From NCBI GenBank assembly GCA_017465905.1, contig JAFTVE010000020.1, forward strand, positions 1 through 52,885: a stretch of 52,885 bases of DNA, written 5' to 3'. This DNA is from Bacteroidaceae bacterium. Its GTDB lineage: Bacteria; Bacteroidota; Bacteroidia; Bacteroidales; Bacteroidaceae. Below the pieces are notes generated by a model, which saw only the letters and a program-made list of their open reading frames with translations, was not told the origin of the DNA and ran no database searches. A program made the position numbers and the translations under genes. Positions 12,687-48,770 of the stretch are shown here, one piece after another; the first letter of the stretch is position 1; every line of letters starts with the position of its first letter.

Positions 12687-12790
12687 ATGAATTCCTGTAC
12701 TCCTCCGTCAGTACTCCAGTACTGAGCTGTAAGTACTCGAGTACTTGGTTCTAAGTATTGCAGTACTTGCAAGGAAGTACAGATAGTTAA
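12687..12790. repeat. 22-bp-period palindrome array A (AGTACT type, 5 units)
   Basis: Five 16-base units start at 12687, 12709, 12731, 12753 and 12775, exactly 22 bases apart with 6-base variable spacers. The central unit AAGTACTCGAGTACTT (12731-12746) is a perfect palindrome. CAGTACTCCAGTACTG (12709-12724) has perfect 7-base arms, and AAGTATTGCAGTACTT (12753-12768) has one mismatch. The outer two are degenerate. The array lies downstream of the lipoprotein pair, facing the DUF6078-like gene. The same architecture with other arm sequences recurs at 38057-38160 and 48447-48770. Confidence 0.88.
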
Positions 12791-12814
12791 CGCTTTTCTG
12801 ACTTGAGATTCGTT

Positions 12815-12832
12815 GCAGTGCGCAAGCACTGC
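12815..12832. repeat. Perfect short hairpin GCAGTGC-GCAA-GCACTGC
   Basis: Seven-base arms around a four-base loop lie between array A and the palindrome at 12880. It is out of phase with the 22-bp array and has no T-tract, so it is not an obvious terminator. Confidence 0.5.
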
Positions 12833-12869
12833 CAATAGGGAAAAGAGGGTTAAGCTGCCTGTAGAATTC

Positions 12870-12897
12870 AAAAAACGTCGATTTCATCGATGAAATC
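12870..12897. repeat. Short repeat copy 2 with an 18-base perfect palindrome
   Basis: This is the second copy of the AAAAAACGnCGATTTCATCG element. It runs directly into GATTTCATCGATGAAATC (12880-12897), a perfect 18-base palindrome. It lies between array A and the 3' end of the DUF6078-like gene. Apart from array A, the hairpin at 12815 and this element, I see nothing in the gene-free stretch 12630-12937. Confidence 0.6.
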
Positions 12898-12937
12898 CCT
12901 AAACACTAAACCTCAGCACCGTTGCCAGGGCAGATTC

Positions 12938-13369
12938 TCAGTCCGCGAAGTTGTAGCGCTCCTCGTAGGCGTCGAACTCGAGGTGAGGGAGCCCTATTGA
13001 GGTGAGCACTTCGCGGATATAGGCTATCTCTTTGGGTGAGCAGAGGCGGTCGCCACGGCGACGCTCGTAGTAGCAGTTGCGCGAGAAGTACTTTATCAAC
13101 TTATCGCTGAACTTGGCGTACTGTGCAGGCAGCATCTGTGCCTGCATACCACAAAAGCCGCGAGCATACACCTCCTTCTGTGCAGGGCGGTAATGGCGGC
13201 AGGTATCACTGGGTGTCGTGCATGAAGGGTTCAGCACGTTGAGCTGCTCTTGGCTGTCGGGTACGGTGTCCCATACCAGACGGCGTAGACAGGTGCTGGC
13301 CATTGGGCACTGGGTGTGTAGGCAAAGCGCAAAGTTGTAGGGTACTTGGGTGTAATCGATGGTGTTCAT
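12938..13369 (-). CDS. Cysteine-rich DUF6078-like protein
   Basis: The 143-residue soluble protein begins MNTIDYTQVPYNFALCLHTQ. It has cysteines near residues 16, 21 and 27 (CLHTQCPMASTCLR), then Cys at about 50 and 57, and FCGMQ near 74. A basic stretch YFSRNCYYERRRGDRLC follows near 94-110. The early cysteines resemble a metal site. The start and length recall DUF6078 proteins common in Bacteroides and Prevotella, but this is from memory of the family. No signal peptide is present, so it is probably cytoplasmic. It is a lone gene converging on the lipoprotein pair. Function is unknown. Confidence 0.72.
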   Translation of the reverse strand: MNTIDYTQVPYNFALCLHTQCPMASTCLRRLVWDTVPDSQEQLNVLNPSCTTPSDTCRHYRPAQKEVYARGFCGMQAQMLPAQYAKFSDKLIKYFSRNCYYERRRGDRLCSPKEIAYIREVLTSIGLPHLEFDAYEERYNFAD

Positions 13370-46230: not shown

Positions 46231-46330
46231 TGTCAATTATAATGCTCCGCATCAAGATTCCTTGCTGGCTCGGCATAGTTCAAGCAAGCTTGACTCTGCT
46301 CTCGCTGTGCTGCGGAATTGTCAATTAATA
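46211..46330. repeat. TCAATT-rich intergenic repeat between ahcY and the LOG gene
   Basis: Repeated TTGTCAATT and GAATTGTCC segments (46211-46240 and 46314-46328) bracket a hairpin-like core that includes CAAGCAAGCTTG (46279-46290). It looks like a dispersed intergenic element and overlaps the first codons of the LOG-family gene. A further TTTTCAACTTTCAATTTTC tract lies at 48384-48407. Confidence 0.5.
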
Positions 46331-47743
46331 TCGGTAGTGCTCCGCCTTATAGGGGCCCTCCACCTTCACACCTATATAGTCGGCCTGTGCCTGTGTGAGT
46401 GTGGTGAGGTGTACGCCTATGCGCTCCAGGTGCAGGCGAGCCACCTCCTCGTCGAGGTGCTTGGGCAGGCGATACACGTCGATGGGGTACTGCTTGCCGT
46501 AGAGCTCTATCTGTGCCAGTGTCTGGTTGGTAAACGAGTTGCTCATCACGAATGAGGGGTGACCGGTGGCGCAGCCCAGGTTCACCAGACGTCCGTCGGC
46601 GAGCAGGATGATGCTGTGTCCGTCGGGGAAGTAGTAGCGGTCCACCTGCGGCTTCACGTTCTCGCGGCGTATGCCGGGATAGTTCTTCAGCGCCTCCACC
46701 TGTATCTCATTGTCAAAGTGGCCTATGTTGCACACGATAGCCTGGTCGGGCATCGCGGTCATGTGCTCTATGCGCACGATGTCGATGTTGCCTGTCGTGG
46801 TCACGAAGATGTTGCCCTGCGAGCAAGCCTCCTCCATGGTCACCACCTGGAATCCCTCCATGGCAGCCTGCAGTGCGCAGATGGGGTCAATCTCGGTCAC
46901 CAGCACACGGGCACCGTATGAGCGCAGGCTATGTGCGCAGCCCTTGCCCACATCGCCGTAGCCGCATACCACAGCCACCTTGCCGGCAATCATCACGTCG
47001 GTAGCGCGCTTGATACCATCGGCCAGCGACTCGCGGCAGCCGTAGAGGTTGTCAAACTTGCTCTTCGTCACCGAGTCGTTCACGTTGAAGGCGGGGAACA
47101 GCAGCTTGCCCTCCTCCTTCATCTGGTAGAGGCGGTGCACACCTGTGGTCGTCTCCTCGCTCACGCCGCGTATCTCCTTGGCCATGGCGGTCCACAAGCC
47201 CGGCTGCTCGGCCAGCACCTGCTTGAGTATAGCCTTCAGCTCAGCCTCATCCTCACCGCCCGACGGGGTGTCGAGCACTGCCGCATCCTTCTCGGCATCC
47301 ACGCCCAGGTGTATCATCAGGGTAGCGTCGCCACCGTCGTCAACGATCACGTTGGGACCCTTGCCGTCGCCGAAGTTCAGCGCCTGCAGCGTGCACCACC
47401 AGTAGTCGGCCAGCGTCTCGCCCTTCCATGCAAACACGGGCACGCCGAGGTCGGCAATGGCAGCAGCGGCATGGTCCTGTGTAGAGTAGATGTTGCATGA
47501 GCACCAGCGCACCTCGGCACCCAGCGCCTTGAGCGTCTTGATGAGCACGGCCGTCTGTATCGTCATGTGCAGCGAGCCCATCACTCGAGCCCCTGCCAGC
47601 GGTTTGCTGTCGCCATACTTCTCGCGCAGCGCCATGAGTCCCGGCATCTCATGCTCGGCCATGTCGATTTCCTTGTGTCCAAACTCGGCCAACGTCATGT
47701 CGGCCACTTTATACGGGAGGGTTGAAAAAAGCTGTTCAGTCAT
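46325..47743 (-). CDS. ahcY: Adenosylhomocysteinase (S-adenosylhomocysteine hydrolase)
   Basis: This 472-residue cytosolic enzyme splits S-adenosylhomocysteine into adenosine and homocysteine using bound NAD, and so clears the product of methylation reactions. The NAD loop GYGDVGKG is at residues 261-268. The substrate-site segments [13 protein letters not shown] (83-95) and [12 protein letters not shown] (197-208) and the C-terminal YKAEHYRY are all present. Length is typical for the bacterial form with the extra insertion near 150-190. It is monocistronic, with its own -7 box at 47772. The adenosine-kinase-like protein at 18737-19723 could consume the adenosine. Confidence 0.98.
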
Positions 47744-47771
47744 ATTCTTCCTTAATTTTATTTTGTGATGA

Positions 47772-47779
47772 CAAAATTA
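47772..47779 (-). promoter_or_regulatory. -7 box of ahcY within the motif shared with tyrS
   Basis: TAATTTTG on the minus strand lies about 29 bases upstream of the start codon. It belongs to the 27-base segment 47772-47798 shared with tyrS (24 of 27 identical). Confidence 0.6.
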
Positions 47780-48446
47780 GTGCAAAATTTCGATTTAGTG
47801 AAGGCAATGCAAGTTAACTTGTATTATTGAACGTGAGAAATTTAGTTTAGGCGAGCGAAAAAGCAAATTTCTCGGATAAACCGAGTGCCGAACCACAGAG
47901 ATATATCTGATTACACGGACACAAATAATCTTAATAGATTAACACATTAACATACATTCAAAGATAGGATAAAGGACTCAGGAATACGAACAGTTGTTTA
48001 TCTCGCTACATAATTCTTGAAGAATCCTGCCAAGCCCCCTTGGCAGGAAAAGCTTGCCGCGTGGCTTGTTATGGGCAGAAGGAAAACTTTATCTATTGAT
48101 ATAGAGTGCGTTGCATTTCGCCCCAGCGGATTGTCACTATAAATATCACTAAAAAGTGCGGTATATAGAATTTTCATTTTTGGCCTGGCAATGGCAAACC
48201 GATATGTAGTACTGTACACCTCCTTACGTGTTTCTCCGTACGATAATCCATAAGCATCTGCCACTGCCAGGCCAAAAATGAAAATTACTATATAGGGGGA
48301 TTTGGAGCCTCTGGCGCGTCGGATTTCGCCCCTAAGAAAAGCGAACCGCGTTGATTATCAGCATGAAATGGAATATGTCTTAATTTTCAACTTTCAATTT
48401 TCAATTCTTTCTGCCAGGGGGTTGCCAAGGGGGGGGGCATGCACCG
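47780..48446. other. Repeat-rich gene-free region between ahcY and array C
   Basis: No convincing gene lies here. It holds inverted arms GAGAAATTT/AAATTTCTC (47835-47873), a hairpin CTCGG-ataaa-CCGAG (47871-47885), a 9-base hairpin CCTGCCAAG/CTTGGCAGG (48026-48047), the fold-back element at 48162-48294, a TTCAATTT tract (48384-48407) and a run of nine G (48429-48437). An 88-codon frame at 47998-48264 starts inside the fold-back arm and is not supported. Confidence 0.7.
48162..48294. repeat. 133-bp fold-back (MITE-like) element
   Basis: The left arm is TATATAG (48162-48168) plus 28 bases (48169-48196). It is inverted at 48259-48294 with one mismatch in the 28 bases and a single extra base before the terminal CTATATA. 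The arms contain TTTTTGGCCTGGCA. The 62-base centre has no open reading frame of note. Long near-perfect terminal arms with no gene inside suggest a miniature inverted-repeat element or its relic. No target-site duplication is certain. Confidence 0.72.
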
Positions 48447-48770
48447 CTCGCGGTACATGCATGTAATGGATTTGGTACAGACTTGTAACAGAATTGGTGC
48501 AGGCTTGTAAATTACGTGATGAGCCTGTAAGAAAATCTTGGAGCACCTGCGAGAAACAACGGACATGCCTTCGTGAGAAAACGCAGGTGCGTTTCTGAAA
48601 AAAGGCACATGCGTTTTTAAGAAAAGGGACAGCCCTTTTTCAAGAATGGCATGTGCGATTTTCCGTTTACAGCTTCTTGCATGCGAAATCAGAGCCTTGC
48701 AATAAATCTGACGGAGCCGTCCGTTACAAAAATCAGAGCCGTCCGATAAAACTGACGGACGGCTCTGATT
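48447..48770. repeat. 22-bp-period palindrome array C (15 units, varied arms)
   Basis: Fifteen 16-base units start every 22 bases from 48447 to 48755, with 6-base spacers. Palindromic examples are AAACGCAGGTGCGTTT (48579-48594), AAAGGGACAGCCCTTT (48623-48638) and AAAGGCACATGCGTTT (48601-48616, one mismatch). At 48452, 48474 and 48496 successive units share GGTnCA...TGTAA. At 48691, 48713 and 48735 they share nGAGCC. The last two units are reverse complements and form the terminator hairpin at 48731-48770. The array begins 9 bases past the stop of the Abi-like gene, so it is downstream of it. Confidence 0.82.
48731..48770 (-). terminator. Terminator hairpin of the Abi-like gene
   Basis: AATCAGAGCCGTCCG (48731-48745) pairs perfectly with CGGACGGCTCTGATT (48756-48770) over 15 bases, loop 10. 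Read on the minus strand it is followed by TTTGTAACGG, a short T tract, and lies 8 bases after the stop codon. It is built from the last two units of array C. Confidence 0.8.

Follow-up and report, generated by a model that had tools for sequence, protein, structure and literature searches.

Palindromes of the repetitive extragenic palindrome (REP) and bacterial interspersed mosaic element (BIME) type serve as targets for insertion sequences (ISs), including members of the IS3 family; IS1397, ISPsy8, and ISPpu9 are named in the available portion of the account (PMC1525189). BrickBuilt of Porphyromonas gingivalis is a minisatellite classed as a miniature inverted-repeat transposable element (MITE) (available portion of PMC4596501). 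PINSR is a 188-bp intergenic repeat of Prevotella intermedia and its relatives, with 177 and 184 copies in two strains; the available portion of its description gives it no terminal inverted repeats, places about three-quarters of copies at conserved positions, and reports PCR detection in P. disiens (PMC4755523). Here we describe three arrays of short tandem palindromes, A, B, and C, in a 52,885-nucleotide stretch of a Bacteroidaceae bacterium (contig JAFTVE010000020.1 of assembly GCA_017465905.1, referred to as the window), together with similar arrays in the rest of the source genome and in other genomes. Searches of the open-licence literature, judged from their listings, turned up no prior account of a class of 22-bp palindromes in Bacteroidales. 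We lean toward the view that A, B, and C belong to a REP/BIME-like class of extragenic tandem palindromes that is recognized by its structure, or by a protein bound to it, and that serves as a target for IS insertion.

The first-pass annotation of the window held that the three arrays have the same unit length (16 nt), period (22 nt), spacer length (6 nt), and intergenic location but not the same sequence, and this description was borne out. We scanned the window for 16-nt palindromes in tandem, scoring the outer seven pairs at periods of 16 to 44. The three top chains were A, B, and C, all at period 22 (Table 1). The best chain in 20 dinucleotide shuffles of the window scored 7.0 at any period and 6.0 at period 22; the next real peaks were 8.0 at period 30 (20068 to 20173) and 7.5 at period 33, a harmonic of array C. 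Stricter dyad thresholds recovered array A alone and missed B and C. Tandem Repeats Finder reported period 22 at all three places, with consensus units that are unlike. Array A has 16-bp palindromes at 12709, 12731, and 12753 (AGTACTnnAGTACT cores), separated by 6-bp spacers and flanked by half-sites at both ends; array B has four 16-bp palindromes of the GAGACTnnAGTCTC type from 38079. All three arrays lie between long open reading frames (ORFs). Two small ORFs, of 99 and 133 amino acids (aa), overlap arrays B and C, respectively; we take both to be spurious.

The same geometry recurs across the source genome. Our sample comprised 40 stretches (794 kb of 2.84 Mb, from contigs with known matches; with the window, 847 kb). 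At period 22, the 794 kb held 20 palindrome chains of three or more units versus 1 in one shuffle; the first-pass annotation had named such a comparison as one that could refute the proposed class. Other periods gave 0 to 3 chains in the same DNA, except for 12 at the harmonic period of 33. Runs of self-similarity at lag 22, picked without regard to symmetry, numbered 31 in 847 kb; other lags between 14 and 45 gave 0 to 5 (15 at the harmonic lag of 44), and the shuffled control gave none at lag 22. At the best dyad phase, 27 of the 31 runs paired at 60% or more. An array has three to eight units, in which a 16-bp palindrome is joined to a 6-bp spacer, and by inspection the arrays fall into about a dozen unlike sequence families with one layout. 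Eight further places in this genome match array A, and units of the array C type recur in loci L122, L086, and L130. Unlike families can adjoin one another, as at 48434 to 48667 of the window and in loci L062, L135, and L317. These data support a structure-defined class in the source genome, in which many unlike sequences take one geometry. This much of the first-pass proposal stands, but the palindromes are weaker in other Bacteroidales, as described below.

A family of proteins that co-occurs with the arrays, for which the first-pass annotation proposed a test, did not appear: among 53 proteins encoded beside source genome arrays, any one Pfam family matched 2 at most. The nucleoid protein scaffold that it offered as an example is possible, but the same survey gave no recurrent candidate. 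No autonomous mover of the arrays was found in this genome. An origin from REP-associated tyrosine transposases (RAYTs) was unsupported, since the sole Y1_Tnp (RAYT-like) match in the genome, which is 80% complete, lies at L184 (G000:C47), a 3.3-kb locus without a lag-22 array.

The two arms of the palindromes covary. Among 57 arrays outside family A, drawn from all DNA sampled, we set the dyad phase on alternate units and tested it on the remainder. Cross-validated pairing was 0.53, versus 0.26 at other phases, and exceeded 0.5 in 28 of the 57. Covariation was assessed on 37 of these arrays, the 20 with best-phase pairing below 0.5 being left out, with permutation within arrays; because flanks inflate the signal (z of about 10 untrimmed), the analysis was repeated on trimmed arrays (z of 5), and the trimmed results are given here. 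Of the 443 cells at pairs 2 to 8 of the 16-mer that vary on both sides, 227 were complementary (189 expected), and none of 1,000 permutations reached this count; the phase was chosen by pairing, which favors that register. The signal was strongest at pairs 4 to 6, present at 3 and at 7 and 8, and not significant at 2, and neither the center pair nor the spacer covaried in these 37 arrays. A hairpin register across the 6-bp spacer was rejected, with pairing below the permutation mean. The 13 arrays from other genomes showed weaker covariation when taken alone (75 of 163 versus 65 expected; 21 of 1,000 permutations). A pooled polarity signal (108 of 138 versus 96.7) is confounded by copying of units within arrays. 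A covariance model over mixed families was rejected: MAFFT shifted the registers, and a 10-sequence model (R1) matched mainly families A, B, C, and F, a residual sequence bias, and was left unused for taxonomy.

Arm covariation is compatible with a 6-bp stem closed by a 4-nt loop, or with mutation templated by the palindrome. The earlier suggestion of a self-templated repeat that propagates by dyad pairing agrees with the covariation. The stem also suits an explanation in which the arrays act as RNA, as transcribed tails of small hairpins that end or protect transcripts. Either strand of arrays A, B, and C, taken as RNA, folds better than shuffled sequence (z of -3.9 to -6.1), but palindromes of any origin fold well. 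Family A arrays are rare between divergent genes (7 of 61, versus 35 of 150 gaps), as expected of transcribed tails, but source genome arrays as a whole have no placement bias (6 of 24 in divergent gaps, versus 52 of 194 in the background). Array B has a separate terminator-like site adjoining it, Rfam yields only tRNAs in the window, and the G.U asymmetry expected of an RNA hairpin was rejected, as the wobble lean falls on the other strand. We regard an RNA function as improbable. Mutation alone would be another cause, with template switching perfecting the palindromes and slippage growing the arrays in the absence of any function. Quasipalindrome correction would yield arm covariation, and loci L108 and L113 differ by the gain or loss of one 22-bp unit. 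However, this account leaves unexplained the fixed period in all families, the conservation of the palindrome cores, and the IS association described below, and we give it little credence.

One IS end lies beside arrays of several families. A search of the source genome that used one family D array plus flank as query revealed a 140-bp repeat adjoining arrays; it ends in CTACTGAAATCAGGAAAAGACA and frequently lies at contig ends. Upstream of the repeat in one copy in a congeneric genome (G013) lies the probable C terminus of an IS3-type transposase (120 codons; rve_3, 2e-17; best NCBIfam IS3 model, 1.4e-19 and 70.6 bits, the fragment scoring below the full-length cutoff of 160 bits; IS481, 3.8e-12). 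Hence, we interpret the 140-bp repeat as an IS3-family right end. IS3 ends are CA, as is the end of the repeat here. The other copies show only the end at a contig break or are remnants of 140 to 185 bp; the IS body and left end are largely unseen because draft genomes and metagenome-assembled genomes (MAGs) break at repeats. The conserved end had no Rfam match in the four loci searched.

We searched 19 genomes of the genus and found the repeat at 33 places, as 22 long copies, 10 tail-only matches, and 1 inner part (in G008). A lag-22 array (identity of at least 0.68) starts within 60 bp of the IS3-type right end in 20 of the 22 long copies: 10 of 10 in the source genome, 6 of 7 in G013, 3 of 3 in G011, and 1 of 1 in G001. 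The long copy in G002 has a weak repeat only (0.52). By comparison, an array lies no more than 60 bp away on a given side of 301 of 13,567 intergenic points (2.2%). The binomial probability of 20 in 22 is 2e-31, uncorrected for shared descent or for the seed copy. The seed was chosen for its array, and without it the count is 19 of 21; judged by their flanks, three pairs of copies in the source genome and G013 look like shared insertions, leaving about 17 events. By our reading of the units, the arrays beside the 20 ends are 13 of family D, 3 of family A, 2 of CACCGCGGTG, 1 of GAGACT, and 1 of TTCTCTTCGCGAAGAGAA. One IS beside five unlike sequence families argues for recognition of something other than base sequence. 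At one site, the IS is missing from the source genome, where the array and its flank are present (97.8% identity over 231 bp from the junction), and two paralogues within the source genome likewise differ by the IS (97.9% over 288 bp). This suggests that the array preceded the IS, or that the IS was lost cleanly.

A motif resembling the IS end was also found beside family A arrays more widely. Among 112 GTDB loci, themselves selected for family A, it lies 5 to 26 bp from the array in 9 of 14 occurrences and never on the opposite side; the loci with the motif beside the array include Phocaeicola plebeius, Bacteroides mediterraneensis, and a Parabacteroides MAG. The motif is beside arrays in 4 of 5 cases in the source genome (one a likely chance match), in 1 of 2 in loci L312 to L319, and in 0 of 12 in G023 and in the order and outgroup stretches. 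Such one-sided placement in constant orientation would also be expected if the motif were a leader and not an IS end, with leader and array together forming a unit that builds new palindromic units. We consider this very unlikely, as the source genome has a motif-less array at a matching place, one copy runs upstream into the transposase, the end is the CA of IS3 elements, and the three window arrays lack the motif. Separately, the tail-only loci of G005 and G015 (L359, L361, L366, L367, L371, L372, L375, L378, and L380) mostly continue into GTTACATGTTACA- or GTGACA-type short repeats, and in L372 an A+T-rich stretch with lag 22 lies 94 bp away; a sister element may target another repeat.

The REP/BIME-like reading would work as follows. 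The arrays would be dispersed, inherited between genes, and used as landing sites by ISs, much as proteobacterial REP/BIME sequences are. The IS may sense a structure common to all families, such as hairpin or cruciform extrusion, bent DNA, or a conserved protein bound at a spacing of two helical turns. Recognition by the same factor would keep the layout while the letters drift. A more ambitious version, which we hold only as a tentative possibility, is that the arrays are a sequence-independent DNA mark of Bacteroidales: a conserved factor would read any array of palindromes spaced at 22 bp, and IS3-family transposases would dock on the resulting complex or on the extruded hairpins, so that shape, in place of sequence, would steer insertion to harmless intergenic places.

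Family A allowed us to compare the same arrays between species. In eight pairs of orthologous arrays, substitutions numbered 3 of 96 at core positions outside the anchor, 9 of 48 at the center, and 18 of 192 in the spacer (P = 0.019 for core versus rest); these are 8 of 11 aligned pairs, L097-L102, L097-L118, and L108-L113 being left out. Unit number was mostly equal in the 11 alignments. Orthologous family A arrays stay in place between species with their cores conserved. Within the source genome, family A copies have common flanks and boundaries, with ends that are symmetric half-sites, and family D copies likewise share flanks. In the near relative G002 (96% identity), homology with the window ends at 12689, where the conserved flank of array A starts; the G002 contig ends 81 bp past this point. 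Common flanks and boundaries are what one would expect if each family were an ordinary nonautonomous MITE-like repeat with its own transposase, the 22-bp layout being a matter of descent or coincidence. However, about a dozen unlike families have this layout in common, the proteins encoded beside the source genome arrays include no recurrent family, and the family A orthologues are fixed in place. Carriage by phages was also unsupported, as exact patterns for families A, C, and D matched 1, 0, and 0 stretches of viral contigs. We met no IS with family A-like half-site ends, and no complete empty site for the array itself was seen. We consider the MITE explanation unlikely, although the predominance of family D among the IS-linked arrays (13 of 20) and the finding in G023 of the period without an excess of palindromes slightly raise its odds at the expense of the REP/BIME-like reading.

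The layout occurs in some oral and gut members of the order. The family A pattern matched at least 112 stretches of GTDB genomes, and the 80 that were listed all have titles of Bacteroidales type, including P. plebeius, B. mediterraneensis, Mediterranea, Paraprevotella, Prevotella disiens, and Parabacteroides; two Candidatus titles we take to belong to the order. Of 70 family A arrays, 9 lie inside crude ORF calls, as do 5 of the 31 runs in the source genome, where gene calls are also crude. Among plasmid records, the family A array matched only in six of Parabacteroides distasonis. A shorter form of the pattern was found in 1 of 296 genomes across the phylum, that of the window itself; the set includes two further members of its family and no genome labeled as belonging to another family of that order. 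Lag 22 gave 8 runs, including a TG microsatellite, in 400 kb of G023, a genome of the window's family, versus 0 to 3 at other lags. G357, of the genus of P. disiens, gave 11 in 100 kb, versus 0 to 2 (5 at lag 44), in stretches drawn from contigs with known matches. In the proposed check on unrelated taxa, run in part, 100 kb of Escherichia coli had nothing at period 22, and about 730 kb of Bacteroidota outside the order had one clear array (L248, G052) and one weak chain (L298, G043). The 22-bp period thus extends to more genomes than the full palindrome does, and relatives in other Bacteroidales keep the period better than the palindrome.

Several results count against recognition by structure as we propose it. 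No protein that binds the arrays was found. Only one copy has the IS body visible beside it, no target duplication was identified, and no IS-end motif lies near window arrays A, B, and C. One family contributes most of the IS-linked arrays, as noted above. One long G013 copy lacks an array in its 140 visible bases, although its orthologue in the source genome (98% identity over 841 bp to the end) has a family A array, and none of the 10 tail-only matches (G003, G005, and G015) has a lag-22 array within 60 bp. In family A, compensatory change is not above chance, the arms barely varying. Wobble mismatches favor A.C on the sense strand (47 versus 20). Outside the source genome, palindrome chains at period 22 are not in excess in G023 (3, equal to periods 20 and 30), only 3 of 12 listed arrays in G357 pair at 60% or more, and lag 22 shows no excess in 281 kb drawn from the window's family and order, where G021 supplied both of the 2 real runs.

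Repeat catalogues are organized by sequence and would scatter these arrays over numerous small families with no relation to one another. A grouping by geometry makes them a single feature of a major gut lineage, and the IS3-type element beside several families makes it directly testable how a transposase or host protein reads a repeat without reading its letters.

Table 1. Arrays of the window, their chain peaks, and adjoining features
Feature	Position	Strand	Remarks
Gene left of array A	11655-12629	+	No Pfam match
Intergenic region of array A	12630..12937	.	Between convergent genes
Array A	12695..12782	.	88 bp = 4 x 22; layout 8-6-16-6-16-6-16-6-8
Array A chain peak	12709-12768		3 units; score 9.5
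Gene right of array A	12938-13369	-	DUF6078
Array B	38065..38174	.	110 bp = 5 x 22; degenerate half-sites at both ends
Array B chain peak	38079-38160		4 units; score 9.0
Terminator-like hairpin of gene adjoining array B	38237..38268	-	Consensus match only; distinct from array B
Weaker lag-22 stretch directly adjoining array C	48434..48524	.	Identity 0.62; dyad weak
Array C	48557..48660	.	Five palindromic units, AAACGCAnnTGCGTTT and AAAGGGnnnnCCCTTT types
Array C chain peak	48557-48660		5 units; score 11.5
Gene adjoining array C	48779..49441	-	220 aa

Other features stand near the arrays. The product of the gene adjoining array C is weakly Abi_2-like (E value of 0.0017, below the cutoff) and matches the PD-T4-5 defense model (9e-11). 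Downstream of array C, at 49708 to 49778, is a separate 33-bp tandem repeat of 2.2 copies. Beside family A arrays, in the window (12783 to 12937) and in the flanks of loci L002 to L006, are other dispersed intergenic repeats of the GTTGCAGTGCGCAGCACTGCCAATA type. A DUF6078 gene has a family A array on its 3' side in the window, in G008, and in two G011 loci (L188, L189, and L192). The period-30 palindrome chain noted above has four units and lies just past two tRNA-Asn genes.

Plasmid iterons are tandem binding repeats at replication origins, with units near 22 bp, about two helical turns. They match the arrays in unit size; here, many palindromic arrays are spread across a chromosome. The arrays also differ from clustered regularly interspaced short palindromic repeats (CRISPR): their 16-bp palindromes and 6-bp spacers, the latter often alike within an array, contrast with 24- to 48-bp repeats and unique spacers of similar size (cas genes were not searched for).

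The closest likeness is to REP/BIME sequences, which are also short extragenic palindromes in many copies, clustered, and targeted by ISs (available portions of PMC1525189 and PMC3733652). The IS3-type end beside the arrays recalls the "type 2" ISs near or adjacent to REP (available portion of PMC1525189). In contrast to REP/BIME, the arrays here have a fixed 22-bp tandem period and about a dozen families in one genome, with the same IS beside five of them. We have not filed them as REP, because no common GTAG/CGTC foot was seen in 23 arrays (by inspection, no search having been run) and no RAYT linked to them was found.

BrickBuilt resembles the arrays in its intergenic tandem short units in a Bacteroidales species and in the gain and loss of units. 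It differs in its 23-nt unit of a single sequence family and in its leader and tail, which have terminal inverted repeats like those of ISPg1 and ISPg9 (available portion of PMC4596501), and no word beginning with "palindrom" occurs in its main text. PINSR, described as one 188-bp sequence in the available portion of its account (PMC4755523), is likewise intergenic, and the P. disiens genome has a recurrent 22-bp array. At 6560 to 6850 of locus L135 (P. disiens), next after a family A array comes another 22-bp array, unlike it and of the CAAAATAGGCTATTTTG type, which has at least 31 matches in that genome and at least 21 in G357 and is a candidate for PINSR. The region downstream of tnaA in G357, where a PINSR copy was sought, was without an array. 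PINSR may be built of 22-bp units, and the class described here offers a possible home for isolated reports of this kind.

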